DNA of 53,015 nt from positions 1 to 53,015 of the forward strand of contig LSSJ01000020.1 in the NCBI GenBank assembly GCA_001595785.1. The letters are read 5' to 3'. The notes under the pieces are model-generated. The model made no database searches. It had not been told where the DNA came from and was given only the letters and a program-made list of their open reading frames with translations. The stretch is from Euryarchaeota archaeon SM23-78. Lineage in GTDB: Archaea; Nanobdellota; Nanobdellia; Woesearchaeales; SM23-78. The position numbers and the translations under genes were made by a program. Shown here one piece after another: positions 45,169 to 52,780 of the stretch; positions within the stretch are counted from its first letter, which is position 1; each line of letters starts with the position of its first letter.

Positions 45169-46161
45169 ATGCTATCAGAACAATTCAAGAACAAGCTGTT
45201 GGAATCAGATTTTGAAGATATATTGGGCCAGAATAGAGTTAAGGCTCAGCTAAAGAGACATATTATTCTGGTGGGGCAGCCTGGTATTGGCAAGACTACT
45301 TTGGCTAAGAATGTTGCTAAGCTTATGCCTGAGAAGACTGTTTGTGAGTGTAGTTTTAATTGTTTGCCTGATAATCCTTGTTGTCCTGAGTGCTTGGAAA
45401 AAAAGAAGAAAGGACAAAAAATAAGAACAAAAACCTTGAAAGGCAAGGACTTGTTTGTTAGGGTGCAGGGAAGCCCTGACCTAACAGCAGAAGACCTTAT
45501 TGGTGATATTGATCCTGTGAAAGCATTAAAGTTTGGTCCTCTTAGTGTTGAGGCTTTTAGTCCTGGAAAAATCTTTAAGGCTAATCAAGGGGTTATGTTC
45601 TTTGATGAAATTAATAGGTGCAGTGAGAAGCTTCAGAATGCTCTTCTTCAGGTCTTGGAAGAAAAGAAAATCACAATCGGCAGTTACTCATTTGACTTTG
45701 ATGTAAGCTTTATATTCATAGGCACTATGAACCCTGATGATAAAAGCACAGAGCCGCTCAGTGATGTGTTTTTGGATAGGTTTGACTTAATATATATGGA
45801 ATACCCTGAAACCACAGAGCTAGAAGTTGAGATTGTTAGAAAGTCTGGTAAACAGATTGTTGAGTTTCCAAATCAATTATTATTTAATGTTATTCAGTTC
45901 ATTCGCGATTTAAGAGCTGATACTGATGTTGAGAAAAAGCCTAGTGTAAGGGCAAGCCTTGGCTTGTATGAAAGAGCTCAGAGCAATGCCTACATTAAGA
46001 GTAAGAACAAGGTATCACTCAAGGATGTCCAAGATGTTATTGTAAGTGTGCTCAGCCACAGGATTGGTCTTAAGCCAAGTATCAAGTTCTTGAAAACTCC
46101 TGAAGATTATATTAAGGAGGAGTTTGAAAAGTTTTCTAACCAGATGGGTGGTGGCCGGTAG
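45169..46161 (+). CDS. MoxR/ChlI-like AAA+ ATPase with cysteine cluster
   Basis: An AAA+ protein of the MoxR/Mg-chelatase branch: Walker A GQPGIGKT (36-43), Walker B VMFFDEIN, sensor 1 FIGTMNPDD, and the arginine-finger region SDVFLDRFD. The helix-2 insert (SPDLTAEDLIGDIDPVKAL) is typical. An unusual loop after Walker A holds six cysteines at 59, 61, 65, 71, 72 and 75 (CECSFNC...CCPEC), likely a zinc or Fe-S site. The VWA-domain gene overlaps the 3' end, forming a chaperone pair as in BchI/BchD or MoxR/CoxE. Confidence 0.9.
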   Translation: MLSEQFKNKLLESDFEDILGQNRVKAQLKRHIILVGQPGIGKTTLAKNVAKLMPEKTVCECSFNCLPDNPCCPECLEKKKKGQKIRTKTLKGKDLFVRVQGSPDLTAEDLIGDIDPVKALKFGPLSVEAFSPGKIFKANQGVMFFDEINRCSEKLQNALLQVLEEKKITIGSYSFDFDVSFIFIGTMNPDDKSTEPLSDVFLDRFDLIYMEYPETTELEVEIVRKSGKQIVEFPNQLLFNVIQFIRDLRADTDVEKKPSVRASLGLYERAQSNAYIKSKNKVSLKDVQDVIVSVLSHRIGLKPSIKFLKTPEDYIKEEFEKFSNQMGGGR

Positions 46162-47350
46162 CATAGAGCCAGTAGAGTATAAGCGTGGCAAAGAAAAGTT
46201 TTCTAAGCTTGAAAAAGCAGAGGAGCTTAGTGGAAAACTCTCAAAACAGCAAAAAGAGAATAAGTTGATGCATAGTGTTCTTGAAAGTGACAAAGAAATA
46301 ATTGAAGAAGGAAAACTACTAACTGAGAGTGTTAATCAGAATCTTTCAAGCTTTGTGCCAGACCTTATCTTCAAGAACCTTGTTAATGATTACAAGCTTG
46401 CAAAGCAGTTGTATGGAGAAGTCATTATCAGGAAACTAACTGGCTATGACCCTGGTTTTGTTGAAAAAAATATTAAGATACCAGAGTTCAGAGAAGAGCT
46501 GAAAAAAAATATTGAGGAGAACATTAAGAAGCTTAAACAAAAGGATTTGCTTAACAAAGGAGGAGAGATAACAGACCAAGGTCTGAAATTAAGTTCTCTT
46601 ATTCTTTACACAGAAGAGCTTGATAAATTAAGAATAAAAGGGCTTGGTGAAAAAAAAGAAAAGAAAAAAGATATTTATGGTGATAAAAAGGATTATGTTC
46701 CTTATAAAAAAACAAGATATCGTGATATTGCTGTTAGGCAGAGTGTTAAAACAGCTATTAGAAGACAGCACACCCAGCTTTTAAAAGAAGATTTGCGTAT
46801 TTTTGAAAGACAAAAAAAAGGAGGCATAAGCATAATCTATGCTCTTGATGCAAGTGGAAGTATGAAAGGAGAAAAGATAGGAGTGGGTAAAAGAGCAGGG
46901 GTTGCTCTTGCCTACAAAGTCATCAATGAGAAGAACAAAGTCGGCCTTATTGTTTTTGGAGAAGACGTAAAAAAAATTGTTCCTCCAACCCTTGACTTTG
47001 ATGACATATTAAGAAGCATTACAAGTATTAGAGCAAGAGCAGAGACAGATATTGCAAAGACAGTTCAAAAGGCTATTGAGCTCTTCGGGGCTAGCAAAGA
47101 AACAAAGCACCTGATTCTGCTTACAGATGTACTTCCAACTAAAGGCAAAAAGCCTGAGGAGGAAACCCTCAGAGCAGTAAGCATAGCTAGGGATCAGGAT
47201 ATCACAATATCTGTGGTTGGAATAAACCTAGATAAACAAGGAGAAAAACTTGCAAAAAGGATTATAGAGATAAGCGATGGCAGGTTGTACACAGTGAAGA
47301 ACCTTGAAGTATTAGATACTGTTATACTTGAGGATTATTATATGGTTTAG
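46124..47350 (+). CDS. VWA-domain protein, partner of the MoxR ATPase
   Basis: A helical N-terminal region of about 230 residues with a basic linker precedes a von Willebrand A domain carrying the MIDAS motif DASGSMKG (D242, S244, S246) and later Thr/Asp ligands (ETDIAKT, LLTDVLP). Such proteins work with MoxR ATPases as metal-ion-dependent chelatase-like or chaperone complexes. The start is uncertain: TTG 46124 with AAGGAGG 3 nt upstream, or GTG 46142/46145; both overlap the ATPase gene. The 3' end overlaps a convergent gene by 29 bp. Confidence 0.85.
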   Translation: MKSFLTRWVVAGSIEPVEYKRGKEKFSKLEKAEELSGKLSKQQKENKLMHSVLESDKEIIEEGKLLTESVNQNLSSFVPDLIFKNLVNDYKLAKQLYGEVIIRKLTGYDPGFVEKNIKIPEFREELKKNIEENIKKLKQKDLLNKGGEITDQGLKLSSLILYTEELDKLRIKGLGEKKEKKKDIYGDKKDYVPYKKTRYRDIAVRQSVKTAIRRQHTQLLKEDLRIFERQKKGGISIIYALDASGSMKGEKIGVGKRAGVALAYKVINEKNKVGLIVFGEDVKKIVPPTLDFDDILRSITSIRARAETDIAKTVQKAIELFGASKETKHLILLTDVLPTKGKKPEEETLRAVSIARDQDITISVVGINLDKQGEKLAKRIIEISDGRLYTVKNLEVLDTVILEDYYMV

Positions 47351-48032
47351 ATTGTTTACTTTTGCATTTCTGTATAAAATACTTGAAAAGTTTAAAGAAA
47401 AAAGGCTTATGCAACAATGTTTCTGGATGGAACTGAACTCCAATAACAGGGCTGCCTTTTTTATTTTCAAAAGCCTCAACAAAACCGTCAATACTTTTAG
47501 CTGATACTTGAAAATAAGTAGGCACTGAACAAATCCCTTTGTGATGATTGCTATTCACCTTTATTTTATCACACCGAGCAAGTTTTCTAAGGAAACTCCC
47601 TTTTAATAAATTAATTGAGTGGAATGCTTTTTGATGATTTATCTTTTGAATCTTTGTAATATCATTTATTATTTCACCACCAAAAACATCAATCAGCATC
47701 TGAGCTCCTCTGCAAATTCCAAAAACAGGTTTCCTAGCTTTTACAATTTGCATAATAAGCTTTTTTTCAAAAGCATAGCGTTTAGGATTTGTAAAAGACA
47801 ATGGTTTATTAACAAATTTTTTTGGGTTTGCGCCTTTGTCATAGATTCCGCCGCCCACAAGAAGAAAACCAGCAATCATTTGAAATAAATTTTTATCTAT
47901 ATCAGAATATGATAGTAATATAGGAATAGCGCCTGCTTTACTTATGGCTTTAACATAATTACTGTTAACAATATGGCTTTCATCATGTCCTTTTTTTACT
48001 AAGTCAGGTAAAATACCTATTAAGGGCTTCAA
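47322..48032 (-). CDS. Class I glutamine amidotransferase-like hydrolase (peptidase C26, PuuD-like)
   Basis: The 236-residue GATase fold has the nucleophile elbow FGICRGAQ and the catalytic HPE in GVQFHPETL. The oxyanion strand LLVGGGIYDKG fits gamma-glutamyl-gamma-aminobutyrate hydrolase (PuuD) relatives, which cleave gamma-glutamyl amides. It starts with TTG after GGTGG, 9 nt behind the Lrp-type regulator, so the two form an operon. It is divergent from an ATP-grasp ligase unit; ligation and hydrolysis of a gamma-glutamyl-type bond could be opposite steps (inference). Confidence 0.88.
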   Translation of the reverse strand: MKPLIGILPDLVKKGHDESHIVNSNYVKAISKAGAIPILLSYSDIDKNLFQMIAGFLLVGGGIYDKGANPKKFVNKPLSFTNPKRYAFEKKLIMQIVKARKPVFGICRGAQMLIDVFGGEIINDITKIQKINHQKAFHSINLLKGSFLRKLARCDKIKVNSNHHKGICSVPTYFQVSAKSIDGFVEAFENKKGSPVIGVQFHPETLLHKPFFFKLFKYFIQKCKSKQSKPYNNPQV

Positions 48033-48041
48033 TTAACCACC

Positions 48042-49028
48042 TTATCTATGTTTTTCTATCTCCTCAAAATGATTCTTTGGCACAAACCTTAATTCTTCTA
48101 TTTTTAAAACTTTCATTATTTCAAAATCAGATATCATGTTTTCATATTTTTCTCTTATTTCTGTGAGAAATTTATTAAAATCCTTACTACCAGCACACTC
48201 TGTTGTTATTATCAAATCCCATTCTCCAAAACATTTCACAATCCCCACGACAGAAGGGTGTTCTCTACAAAAAGAAACAATCTGATCTTCTATTAGTAAC
48301 GCATGCTGATATTTGATAAAGAGTTTGTTGCATGTCAAACCTGCTTTCTCAAAATCAATGACTGGTTTAAACCCACGAATCAACTCTTCATCTTTCATGT
48401 AGTTAATAGCTTTGGTTATTGTCAAAAAACTCAGCCCTGTTTTTTTCGATATTTCCTTGATTTTGATTAAAGGATTCTCAAGAAGCAATCTACATATTTT
48501 CATCTGATTCTCAGTAAGATCTATCCTCCCCCTGTCTCCTCCCACAATAACATATTGTTTTTCAGAACTTTTTGAACCAAGCAAGTGACTCCTTGTAAAA
48601 CTATAAGTAACTACTGTTGTTATAATCATATCGTTCCTGATAACATTCTTATTATCCATCTTAACTTTTCTTAAGAGTTTGTTAAAGTAAGAAGGATTTG
48701 GGGCTAAAAACACAGCGTAAACATCCCATTTGCCTTCTAGAAGCTCAAATCTAGACAACTCTGGTACTTTTTTAAGATTATCAAGAAAGTTGTCTAGATC
48801 TGTTTTCTTAGTATAAAATAATCTAAAAAGAACTATATAAGAATTTAAATCAAATCTGCTGTAATCAAAAATGGTTGAAAAGCCTTGAATAATGTTCTTT
48901 TCTAAGAGTTGATGCATTACATAACTAACCATCTGCTGACTTGTTCGACAACTTCTGGCAATGTTTGATAAAGTTTCTCTTGCATTAAGGTCGAGTTCAT
49001 ATAATATTTTTTTGTATAATCTCCTCAT
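48042..49028 (-). CDS. Duplicated Lrp/AsnC-type transcription regulator
   Basis: Two full Lrp-like units in one chain: winged HTH LDLNARETLSNIARSCRTSQ (about 13-32) plus RAM-like domain, then a second HTH (IDLTENQMKICRLLLENPLI, about 168-187) and a second ligand domain ending KVLKIEELRF. Single Lrp proteins are about 150 aa; this one is 328. Lrp regulators sense amino acids. The gene is divergent from the OCD/ATP-grasp operon across a 174-nt region with inverted repeats, which suggests it controls both sides. Confidence 0.88.
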   Translation of the reverse strand: MRRLYKKILYELDLNARETLSNIARSCRTSQQMVSYVMHQLLEKNIIQGFSTIFDYSRFDLNSYIVLFRLFYTKKTDLDNFLDNLKKVPELSRFELLEGKWDVYAVFLAPNPSYFNKLLRKVKMDNKNVIRNDMIITTVVTYSFTRSHLLGSKSSEKQYVIVGGDRGRIDLTENQMKICRLLLENPLIKIKEISKKTGLSFLTITKAINYMKDEELIRGFKPVIDFEKAGLTCNKLFIKYQHALLIEDQIVSFCREHPSVVGIVKCFGEWDLIITTECAGSKDFNKFLTEIREKYENMISDFEIMKVLKIEELRFVPKNHFEEIEKHR

Positions 49029-49062
49029 ATTTTTTAAAAAATAACATCAATATATAAATTTT

Positions 49063-49180
49063 GTTAATTTTCACAAAAAAAATTAACGAAATTATTTTAT
49101 AAATATGATATGGTTACACACTAATAGTAAGATGGGATTTTCTCACACCTACCCCCATTAAATATCATCTTATTATATAA
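49063..49180. promoter_or_regulatory. Divergent control region with two inverted repeats
   Basis: GTTAATTT (49063-49070) pairs with AAATTAAC (49080-49087), an AT-rich palindrome of Lrp-operator style near the regulator start. TAAGATG (49128-49134) pairs with CATCTTA (49166-49172), overlapping the TATA element TATTATATAA (49171-49180) of the OCD gene. A minus-strand TATA (TTTATATATTGATG) lies at about 49046-49058. The OCD ATG is about 27 nt from its TATA, so leaderless. Confidence 0.5.
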
Positions 49181-49202
49181 CAGTTATGGAAAAGAAGAAA
49201 AA

Positions 49203-50231
49203 ATGAAAAGCCTAGAAGTTTTATACTTAGACCAATCTGATCTCATTAAGGCAGGTCTTCTGGATTTCAAAATGGTCTTATCAGAAATTGAGAAAGGCCT
49301 TATCTGGCATGCATCAAATGAATCCTTATCTGACAAAATAGTAATTGAACTTGACCCAATTCAAGACTGGAAAATTAATTCACTCATAGCTATTAATGGA
49401 GATTACAGTGCAAACAAATGGTTGGGCTCTAACCTTATAAAAACAGAGGACTTACCTAGAACCATTGCAACAATTACACTTAATGATAAAAATAACGGAC
49501 ACCCGCTCTGTATAATGGATGGAACGCTTATATCTGCAATCCGAACAGGAGCCTATGCTGCCTTAGGACTCAAGTATCTAGCTCAAGAGAAAAACAACAT
49601 AGGGATTATTGGTTCAGGAGTAATGGCCAAATCCTCACTCTTATTAATGACATCAAATCTAGCGGAAAGAATAAATGATATTTTTGTTTATTCACGCCAT
49701 CCTAAAAATTATAAAGCATTTGCAAAGCAAATGACAGAAAAAACAGGTATGAAAGTCACACCCATATCTGATGTAAGCAAACTTGTAAGATACTCTGACG
49801 TAACTGTTTCAGCAATAACCAAAAATGATGAAATCCTTGTAAAAAACAAAGACGTGAAGAGGGGTTCTACTCATATTCACATAGGAGGGTGGGACGATGA
49901 GGAACAATATCTTATTAGCTGTGCAAAAGAAGGTAAAATTATATGTGATGATTGGAATCTTATTAAAAAAAGAAACGCACATCCCTTACCCCTAGCACAT
50001 AATAAAGGGATAATCTTGGACCGCGATATTTATGCTGAGCTAGGACAAATAATCCTAGGGGAAAAGAAGGGAAGAGAAGCCAATGAAAACATATATTTTG
50101 ATACCGTTGGAATCGGAGAAATGGATTTGGTTCTAGCAATAAAAATATATGAGAAGGCAGTGCAAAGAGGAATTGGCAAACGTCTCAAAATTTGGGATTC
50201 TGCACATTGGATTTTAGAGGGATACAAATAA
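49203..50231 (+). CDS. Ornithine cyclodeaminase/mu-crystallin family NAD(P)-dependent enzyme
   Basis: The 342-residue protein shows the family order: SLIAINGDYSANKWLGSN, MDGTLISAIRTGAYAALGLKYLA (catalytic Asp/Arg region) and the Rossmann loop IGIIGSGVMAKSSLLL, with later SRHPKN and THIHIGGW. Members include ornithine and lysine cyclodeaminases, archaeal alanine dehydrogenase and SbnB-type enzymes of metallophore synthesis. Specificity cannot be read. TAATG coupling with an ATP-grasp ligase favours a biosynthetic role over simple catabolism. Confidence 0.9.
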   Translation: MKSLEVLYLDQSDLIKAGLLDFKMVLSEIEKGLIWHASNESLSDKIVIELDPIQDWKINSLIAINGDYSANKWLGSNLIKTEDLPRTIATITLNDKNNGHPLCIMDGTLISAIRTGAYAALGLKYLAQEKNNIGIIGSGVMAKSSLLLMTSNLAERINDIFVYSRHPKNYKAFAKQMTEKTGMKVTPISDVSKLVRYSDVTVSAITKNDEILVKNKDVKRGSTHIHIGGWDDEEQYLISCAKEGKIICDDWNLIKKRNAHPLPLAHNKGIILDRDIYAELGQIILGEKKGREANENIYFDTVGIGEMDLVLAIKIYEKAVQRGIGKRLKIWDSAHWILEGYK

Positions 50232-51313
50232 TGAGAGACGTTAAGTTTTTGGTAATGGGGGATACCAAGGAGAAGAGATTCCATACCTACACTGAGCTTT
50301 TAAAGAATTTTAACATACCTCATCAAGCCATTGATTATGTTGAACTAATTAATGGCAAAGCCGTGATTCCAGAAGTTGGAGGCAAAGTAATCGTAAGGCT
50401 GTGCTCTCCCTGGTATAATTCTGAACTTATTGATTATTTTCATCAAATAGGAAAAGATAAAGAAACTTTTGATTATGAAATAAAAAAAGGAGATGATTTT
50501 TATAGTAGCACTCCAAAAACCACCAACGGCTTTCTCAAGTTTTTGGAAACAATTGATTCGAAAATAAAGGAAAAAATTGAAACTCCTTTATTTGTAAACC
50601 CTTCAAATGAGATTTACATGGGAAGAAATAAAATACTTATGTATAAAAACTTTGAAAAGAAAAGCATCCCCCACCCTAAAACCTACCTTAATGTTAGAAA
50701 ACCTGCAGAGATTTTTAATCTTTATAATCAATCAAATCATTCTAGTTTGTTTGTTAAAATACACAGTGGCTCTCTTGGTAGAGGAATAGCAATAATAGAT
50801 CAAGAGGGGGTTTATACTGCAACTAAGAAAAAAAATGGAAGGTTTTTTTCAGGACAAAATATTAAAAAACTGAAAACCGATTCTGAGATAGAGGAAACAT
50901 TGCAGTTCTTACTTGACATGTACTCAGTTGTTCAAGAAGGAATTAATTTAGCTAAAATTAACAAAAAGAACTTTGATTTTAGACATTATGTATCCCACGA
51001 TCATTTTACAATATCCATACTGCGGGTGAGCAAGAAGAAGGTAACCAATGAAGCCATGGGAGGAGAAATTGTGAGGGGAGAAGATATAAGTAATTATTTG
51101 AGACAGGAGCAGATTAGCAGAAGTAAAGATCTTGCTACAAAGGCTTTTAAGGGTTTTGAAAGCCTTGATTTAGCAATAGATATTGGTTTTGATTCAGAAT
51201 TCAATAATGCTTATTGCCTTGAGGTTAACTTTCTTCCTGGACTTAATTATCCAGAGAAACCTTATACTTTTGAGATTCAAAGGAATTTAGAAATGTTAGG
51301 AAACAAAAGTTGA
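50231..51313 (+). CDS. ATP-grasp ligase
   Basis: A protein of about 360 residues with an ATP-grasp fold: SIPHPKTYLNVR (linker), FVKIHSGSLGRGIAII (phosphate loop lysine and glycines), DMYSVVQEGINLAKIN, FDFRHYVSHDHFTISILRVS, and the Mg-binding CLEVNFLPGLNYPE. Closest in style to RimK/YheC-type amino acid or peptide ligases. Start at ATG 50231 overlaps the OCD stop (TAATG); the longer frame from 50192 is unlikely. It probably ligates an amino acid-like product of the OCD enzyme. Confidence 0.85.
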   Translation: MRDVKFLVMGDTKEKRFHTYTELLKNFNIPHQAIDYVELINGKAVIPEVGGKVIVRLCSPWYNSELIDYFHQIGKDKETFDYEIKKGDDFYSSTPKTTNGFLKFLETIDSKIKEKIETPLFVNPSNEIYMGRNKILMYKNFEKKSIPHPKTYLNVRKPAEIFNLYNQSNHSSLFVKIHSGSLGRGIAIIDQEGVYTATKKKNGRFFSGQNIKKLKTDSEIEETLQFLLDMYSVVQEGINLAKINKKNFDFRHYVSHDHFTISILRVSKKKVTNEAMGGEIVRGEDISNYLRQEQISRSKDLATKAFKGFESLDLAIDIGFDSEFNNAYCLEVNFLPGLNYPEKPYTFEIQRNLEMLGNKS

Positions 51314-51347: not shown

Positions 51348-51947
51348 TCAAAAGATTATCATCCTGGGATCTCTTTTCTTCTTGGTCTCAAGGGTTTCAA
51401 AGGCTTCTCTTAGTAAGTCTTCACTAACATTAACAAGACCTTGCTTTGGATCCATTACTGAAAAGGCTTTATATTTATTATCAAACCCATGAACAACCAC
51501 ATACTTTGAAGTGCTCCCGCTTTCTCGCAACGCACCCTCGTTTAATCTGAGCATCAATATTTTTCCTAGCTTCACCAATTTTCTTACTTCTTTAAAATCA
51601 AACTCTTTCTCCTCTATTTTTATGCCTAGCTCTCTTGCTTTTTTATGATAAAGCTTTGAAGAGAACTTGGCTTCATCAATCTCTTTTTTGGTGTATCCTT
51701 TAAACCTGTAATCAGGATAATCATATTCTTTTTCTCCAAGCACAATGTTAGGGTTTAAGCCTTGTTGTTTTGCAAACACTGCTAATCCGTATATAGATGA
51801 CGCGCGCACAGGCAGGTTTACTGTGTTCTGCCAGATAAAGAACTCGTTCTCCCGTGATAGTTTGAAGTCTGGTTTGAAATGATTAATAACAGCCATTAGT
51901 GAAGATGCAGCTGTTGTATACTCTGTGGTTTGGATGTATGCTTGCAT
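51348..51947 (-). CDS. C39-like peptidase-fold protein with lost catalytic Cys
   Basis: The 199-residue protein aligns with the stand-alone C39-like family: QTTEYTTAASSLMAV at the N-terminus, KLSRENEFFIWQ, a middle helical region and KYVVVHGFDNKYKAFSVMDPKQG with the catalytic His and Asp. The Cys normally in TTEYTCGPAS is Thr12 here, so peptidase activity is probably lost. ATG 51947 is chosen because a TTTTAAAA box lies about 27 nt upstream. It is downstream of the cyclase-like gene on the same strand. Confidence 0.72.
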   Translation of the reverse strand: MQAYIQTTEYTTAASSLMAVINHFKPDFKLSRENEFFIWQNTVNLPVRASSIYGLAVFAKQQGLNPNIVLGEKEYDYPDYRFKGYTKKEIDEAKFSSKLYHKKARELGIKIEEKEFDFKEVRKLVKLGKILMLRLNEGALRESGSTSKYVVVHGFDNKYKAFSVMDPKQGLVNVSEDLLREAFETLETKKKRDPRMIIF

Positions 51948-51984
51948 GATTAGTAGAAAAAACACTTTGTTTTAAAAGTTTATG

Positions 51985-52758
51985 TTAAATAAGGTACATT
52001 GGAACTTTATCTGAAAGTTTTGGTGGCGGTGCAAGCACAGGCCCTAACTGATAATCAGATGTTTTTTTTTCTAAGGCTTGTTTTCTTTTGTAAGATAATG
52101 AATTCAAAAAGATTGCATATTTTGCAGGTATTTCTTGCGGAGTTTCTTTTGATAATATAATATCTCCTGCATGATATACCCTTATGTCCCCTGTTTGCTC
52201 ACTAAAGGTTAGGAAATAAGCATTTCTATCTTTATATGATGCTGCAATTGTGCTTGTGTGTCTTTTTGAAACAGGTCTTTTAAATCCCCAAACGTAATGA
52301 GGGACGTTCTTTTTGTTTTTTGCTAAGCCGAGTTCAACAGCCACCTCTTCATCAGTAAGAGCAAATTTTCTTTGATAAGATTTAATCTTACCTTTTTGAG
52401 TTATTTCTACTGCGCCGTCATGGTATTCTCCTGTTATTATTTCTTCTAACAACTGCTGTCCTTTTTTATCACTTATATTATGTTGGTTTTCAGGGGAAAG
52501 ATATGTTGCGCTGCCTCCGTTTATTTCTAGTTCTGATTCAGGTGAGTGATTAATGTAGAATATTGCGCCTTTTGCTCTTTTTTTGTGTCTGCTTCGTGGT
52601 TTTCTATCTTTGAAATATTTTTGTTGAAGATTTATAAGAAAAGAATAAGCATCTATTACTTTGCTTTGTAATTCCTTATTTTCTCTGTCTTCTAGATGAT
52701 ATATAAGGTTGCTTAACTCAGTAATACTCGTATCCTTCTTTTTTTTAGAACTGAACAT
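51985..52758 (-). CDS. Probable diadenylate cyclase (DisA_N/DacZ-like)
   Basis: DAC domains make cyclic di-AMP from two ATP. Seen here: HDGAVEI (DGA at 114-116), KRHTS (RH at 166-167, canonical RHR) and FLTFSEQTGDIRVYHAGDI, the VSEETGxI block. The N-terminal 110 residues are charged and unlike bacterial DisA, as in archaeal DacZ. An extra Lys/Asn-rich stretch separates DGA from RHT. ATG 52758 has AAGGTGG at 9 nt and a TATA (AGTATAAAAC, 52781-52789). c-di-AMP controls osmotic and potassium balance in haloarchaea, of interest beside the solute genes. Confidence 0.7.
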   Translation of the reverse strand: MFSSKKKKDTSITELSNLIYHLEDRENKELQSKVIDAYSFLINLQQKYFKDRKPRSRHKKRAKGAIFYINHSPESELEINGGSATYLSPENQHNISDKKGQQLLEEIITGEYHDGAVEITQKGKIKSYQRKFALTDEEVAVELGLAKNKKNVPHYVWGFKRPVSKRHTSTIAASYKDRNAYFLTFSEQTGDIRVYHAGDIILSKETPQEIPAKYAIFLNSLSYKRKQALEKKTSDYQLGPVLAPPPKLSDKVPMYLI

Positions 52759-52780
52759 TTCTATACCCACCTTAAAATAG

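Follow-up and report, generated by a model that had tools for sequence, protein, structure and literature searches.

DPANN archaea are thought to be poor in biosynthesis. What, then, might a compact set of amino-acid-handling enzyme genes with its own regulator be doing in such an organism? The window analysed here is a 53,015-nucleotide stretch of contig LSSJ01000020.1 from the tiny, uncultured Euryarchaeota archaeon SM23-78. A first-pass annotation took it for DNA of a DPANN-like archaeon and proposed that it carries a dedicated small-molecule unit. The first proposal agrees with the name of a relative, G108 (Candidatus Woesearchaeota CSBr16_111R1), and the second with the conserved combination of reductase, ligase and amidase. 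The cassette is real and conserved; it is also rare, and belongs to a wider group of loci. Its function we infer below.

Gene layout and the four proteins

All four genes were found where the first-pass annotation had placed them, and in the families that it had named (Pfam). They form two divergent transcripts separated by 174 A+T-rich bases (49029..49202). On the minus strand, the gene for a double (tandem) Lrp/AsnC regulator of 328 aa, with two HTH and two AsnC domains (48042..49028), is followed 9 bases beyond its stop by that for a PuuD-like C26 amidase, a hydrolase of the class-I GATase fold (47322..48032), and because of this spacing the two look like one divergent operon. On the plus strand, a gene for an NAD(P)-dependent reductase of the OCD/mu-crystallin family (49203..50231) leads into that for a RimK-like (STM4014/YheCD-related) ATP-grasp ligase (50231..51313); the coupling through TAATG that had been described is present in the sequence, the OCD stop TAA and the ligase ATG having one base in common. 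Amidase and ligase genes thus lie on opposite strands. Promoter and terminator scans gave signals no higher than chance. Imperfect inverted repeats in the low-complexity DNA between the transcripts (e.g. 49124-49140/49160-49176, 82%) could conceivably be operator sites.

The reductase matches Pfam PF02423 (133.5 bits, 1.1e-38). Its identification as a plain alanine dehydrogenase or ornithine cyclodeaminase, which the first-pass annotation had named as fatal to its proposal, was considered and rejected, because the protein belongs to a clade without the GADGPGKxEL loop. In the alignment this loop, GAD(G)PGK-EL, which we take to carry the catalytic Asp in those two enzymes, is shortened to GGWDDEE, and the nearest Asp column holds Gly or Ala in the orthologues. 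The score against archaeal alanine dehydrogenase (TIGR02371) is 125 bits for a cut-off of 409. Lys45, Lys72 and Arg114 are retained and align with conserved alanine dehydrogenase and SbnB positions. SbnB (TIGR03944) is the best NCBIfam match, at 139.9 bits for a cut-off of 326.9, and the closest structures to the predicted model (pLDDT 83) are SbnB and, best of all, pyrroline-2-carboxylate reductase (6t3e), to which the protein is only 29% identical. For contrast, an ordinary alanine dehydrogenase-like OCD gene occurs at locus L070 (genome G258), near a contig end, and no ligase was seen beside it.

The ligase matches the Pfam YheC/D model (PF14398, 59.8 bits, 3.2e-16) and falls below the cut-offs of the STM4014 family (NF038074, 93.2 for 175 bits) and, with the core ATP-grasp residues kept, of RimK (TIGR00768, 35.8 for 143.4 bits). 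The catalytic residues are intact (invariant K176, DxR at 249-251, D317 and E331), and a profile search of structures returned RimK and LysX. Model scores and profile matches together support a ligase of the amide-forming RimK/LysX kind. Structure prediction, which had been suggested as a check, served for the reductase; for the ligase the model, built from two sequences, had a mean pLDDT of 43, too poor for a fold search. No match to the ligase was found in the plasmids and phages searched, nor to the neighbouring C39-like protein in viral contigs and plasmids, and our search yielded no literature account of STM4014.

The amidase scores 138.5 bits against PF07722 (3.6e-40; cut-off 20.5) and keeps its catalytic residues, the Cys of GICRG and the His and Glu of FHPE. 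Its nearest solved structures are Lin1909 (3fij), 7d4r and PuuD (6vtv), and it reaches 64.5 bits against the PuuD equivalog PRK11366, for which the cut-off is 266. It resembles gamma-glutamyl amide hydrolases. A ligase accompanied by such a hydrolase brings to mind PuuA/PuuD and EgtA/EgtC, the latter a transient-protection scheme in which gamma-glutamate is put on by the ligase and taken off by the amidase. The regulator carries the Lrp/AsnC ligand-binding domain (PF01037, 37.7 bits for a cut-off of 25) and, aligned from end to end, is about 27% identical to the products of double-Lrp genes that neighbour an ATP-grasp gene at loci L013 and L046. At L013 (5616-6497) a chorismatase FkbO/Hyg5-like N-domain protein lies two genes away from the double Lrp.

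Recurrence, insertion site and exchange of enzymes

Both coupled genes are rare: among 353 genomes of the order, relatives of the reductase occur in 4 and of the ligase in 18, and none of six same-genus genomes has a close relative of the ligase. Despite this rarity, in G108, which belongs to another family, OCD, ATP-grasp and C26 genes are consecutive on one strand with overlapping ends, the contig ending within C26, so that the grouping is more than chance. Identity to the window is 59% for the reductase, 35% for the ligase and 37.5% for the amidase, and in the ligase tree the proteins of these two OCD loci group together as a clade (100/100). The G108 operon includes no Lrp. Conservation of a four-gene neighbourhood, which had been proposed as a test, therefore holds for three genes, together with a regulator type common to other variants. 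Elsewhere reductase relatives occur two together: those of G386 and G531 (50-55% identical) adjoin an amidohydrolase, with no ligase adjoining either pair, and those of G309 adjoin the C39-like gene. Bacterial relatives are undersampled because the GTDB contig scan, which found 9 loci, relied on two peptide patterns. In Muribaculaceae (L055:5530-9002, L056:5525-9002) the OCD gene overlaps one ATP-grasp gene, and a second, L-amino-acid-ligase-like in L056, lies just upstream. In Methylomonas/Methylococcaceae (L057:7983-12214 and L058) it accompanies sarcosine-oxidase-like and FAD amine-oxidase genes, with a RidA-type gene in L057.

The cassette is flanked on one side by genes for a MoxR ATPase and a VWA protein (45169..47350, plus strand; Pfam), which we place outside the pathway, and on the other by a gene for a C39-like DUF3335 protein (51348..51965, minus strand; PF11814, 52.2 bits), next to which stands a DisA_N-like (diadenylate cyclase, DAC) gene (51985-52770). 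Two same-genus loci, L107 and L108, have DAC and C39-like genes beside VWA and MoxR genes, C39 and VWA being either directly adjacent or separated by a single small gene; the cassette is therefore an insert, or was lost in these two. Since the four genes occupy exactly the gap between VWA and C39, the extent given in the first-pass annotation coincides with what was inserted or lost. Cassette G+C is 32.4% as against 35.8% (4-kb windows), the second lowest value of 99.

The C39-like gene, just outside that extent, often accompanies variants of the cassette. Where a C39 peptidase has its catalytic Cys, the 24 relatives show Cys, Thr, Ser, Ala, Gly or Arg; the window has Thr. The catalytic His is not conserved either, so that the protein probably binds and is not a normal peptidase. 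Among the C39-like DUF3335 proteins of Woesearchaeales (window, L048, L068, L107-L126) absence of the catalytic Cys is frequent and no His is conserved, yet many of them adjoin ligase/amidase cassettes. At 10 of the 24 C39-like loci examined a ligase gene lies within three genes (nine labelled as such, plus the ATP-grasp gene of L126).

These loci were selected for a ligase or a C39-like gene, and so are not a neutral sample, and the family queries derive partly from the same loci. We read them as the same reductase, ligase and amidase slots occupied by different families. One apparent operon (L122) consists of genes for an opine dehydrogenase, a B12-binding-domain protein, a Ddl-like ATP-grasp enzyme, C26 and C39; L121 has a GshB-like ATP-grasp enzyme, an opine dehydrogenase, an S66 peptidase and C39. 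Elsewhere the operon comprises a Ddl-like ATP-grasp enzyme, glutamate racemase, class-I GATase, C39 and class-II GATase (L123, 3096-6970), or, in another apparent operon, an SbnA-like PALP protein, a deacetylase-like protein, an ATP-grasp enzyme, two amidohydrolases and C39 (L126, 724-5904). A GCS2-like ligase, class-II GATase and C39 recur at L116-L118 and L124, the L116 and L118 ligases being assigned solely because they resemble the GCS2 proteins encoded at L117 and L124. ATP-grasp genes of the window's own group lie beside AlaDH/PNT dehydrogenase genes at L030, L043, L047 and L049, and several other loci of the group have such genes nearby, often with GATase and GNAT genes. No recognised reductase was found near the ligase/GATase genes of L048 or of L013 and L046 (family f41), where double Lrp, ATP-grasp and class-I GATase genes are flanked by MoxR/VWA. 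The reductase slot is thus filled by OCD, opine or AlaDH/PNT dehydrogenases, the ligase slot elsewhere by Ddl-, GshB- or GCS2-like enzymes, and the amidase slot elsewhere by class I or II GATases or S66. The single unit first described is real, but it is one of many order-wide variants that the first-pass annotation missed; no description of the broader set was found in the literature searched.

A possible conjugate pathway and its alternatives

We lean, by a modest degree, towards reading the cassette as a small pathway devoted to an amino-acid conjugate, which may be opine-like or gamma-glutamyl. With NAD(P)H the OCD-family enzyme would reduce an imine and so yield a non-standard amino acid, which would be either a cyclic imino acid or, as in opines, one with an N-carboxyalkyl group. 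The RimK-like ligase would then couple this product to a second amino acid (plausibly glutamate) as an amide, and C26 would cleave a gamma-glutamyl or similar amide, removing a protecting or activating group or recycling the product. The double Lrp may sense an amino acid and govern both divergent transcripts, and the C39-like protein would bind rather than cut. The sequences themselves show the genes, the intact residues of ligase and amidase, the conserved operon, the insertion site and the exchange of enzymes within slots; which way the reactions run and in what order, on which substrates and to what product, and how Lrp and C39 act, we infer. The opine-like guess is made because some members of the OCD, PNT and opine dehydrogenase families alike form or split N-carboxyalkyl amino acids. 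Support for the pathway comes from the overlapping operon of G108, the grouping of opine dehydrogenase, ATP-grasp, S66 or C26, and C39-like genes at L121 and L122, the association of ATP-grasp genes with AlaDH/PNT-type dehydrogenases and, in Muribaculaceae, with OCD, and the nearest relatives of the reductase model and ligase profile. It is weakened by the loci without a recognised reductase, by the OCD pairs of G386 and G531 without a ligase, by the opposite strands of amidase and ligase in the window and by the poor ligase model. A wider proposal, which we put forward tentatively as possible, is that the window holds one version of an undescribed modular Woesearchaeales system, in which a C39-like binding protein marks freely swapped reductase/ligase/amidase cassettes, each making its own opine-like or gamma-glutamyl conjugate.

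The conjugate pathway has to be weighed against several other readings. Flanks that occur without the cassette, other genes at similar sites in other families, and low G+C would all suit a chance gathering of unrelated metabolic genes, with the interval from MoxR/VWA to C39/MPE serving as an insertion hot spot; this is improbable given that the overlapping operon recurs in G108 with no MoxR/VWA adjoining it and that the G108 ligase shares a clade with that of the window. A salvage route, in which C26 hydrolyses imported gamma-glutamyl-type amides, OCD oxidises the freed amino acid, the ligase makes the entry conjugate (PuuA/PuuD-type) and Lrp induces when amino acids are present, would fit an amidase nearest PuuD/SpuA-type hydrolases, the amine-oxidising and RidA-type neighbours of the Methylomonas relatives, and the reported shortage of amino-acid synthesis in Woesearchaeota (PMC8421398). 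The coupled partner of OCD is an ATP-consuming ligase, however, and the cassette holds neither a transporter nor an oxidase, so that we consider salvage rather unlikely. RimK, which modifies ribosomal protein S6, is among the best profile matches of the ligase and would allow reversible protein modification, in which a protein would receive either glutamate or the OCD product from the ligase and lose it again through the amidase; we hold this to be doubtful, as the amino-acid dehydrogenases, racemase or SbnA-like gene of many variants better fit the supply of a small molecule.

A metallophore link had been suggested through SbnB, and a diaminopropionate-based metallophore or antibiotic system of the SbnB/dapdiamide kind would accord with SbnB being the best NCBIfam hit and one of the closest structures, with the SbnA-like gene grouped with ATP-grasp and C39-like genes at L126, and with the ATP-grasp ligase used to make dapdiamides (PMC12568646). 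SbnB is paired with SbnA (PMC3179956), and no SbnA-type PALP partner was found: the one PALP gene found in the window's own genome (G000) is CysK-like by inspection and none was found in G108, both genomes being about 90% complete. SbnB-type chemistry is therefore unlikely, and with the SbnB cut-off far from reached and a siderophore synthetase and transporter absent nearby, the metallophore or antibiotic reading is the least credible of all and a specific metallophore link is not supported.

If the conjugate pathway is correct, a repeated, enzyme-swapping recipe for such conjugates in DPANN archaea would suggest that small molecules play a part in how these interact with hosts or neighbours. 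Its three-enzyme operons are small enough for in vitro testing, and it would hint at what DUF3335 C39-like proteins do.

Relation to known systems

The reductase shares its superfamily, top fold match and aligned Lys and Arg residues with SbnB of the SbnA-SbnB L-Dap synthase (staphyloferrin B), but scores far under the SbnB cut-off, has no SbnA partner that we could find and is coupled to an ATP-grasp gene. Fold and NAD(P) motif it shares with archaeal alanine dehydrogenase and the pyrroline-2-carboxylate reductase of T. litoralis, the former differing in its GADGPGKxEL loop. With the RimK/LysX/MptN glutamate ligases and the STM4014 family the window ligase shares the ATP-grasp core and the DxR and metal residues, yet it lies below all curated cut-offs save that of the broad YheC/D model. 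The amidase belongs with the PuuD and SpuA gamma-glutamyl amide hydrolases in family and intact Cys-His-Glu, and departs from them in its sub-cut-off PuuD equivalog score and its gene partners. Also comparable are the predicted amidoligase systems reportedly described by Iyer et al. in 2009, in which an ATP-grasp enzyme has GNAT and peptidase partners, said to be likewise small operons of ligase, amidase and modifying enzymes; the archaeal set differs in having a slot for an amino-acid reductase and, as a partner, a C39-like protein whose catalytic residues are not conserved.
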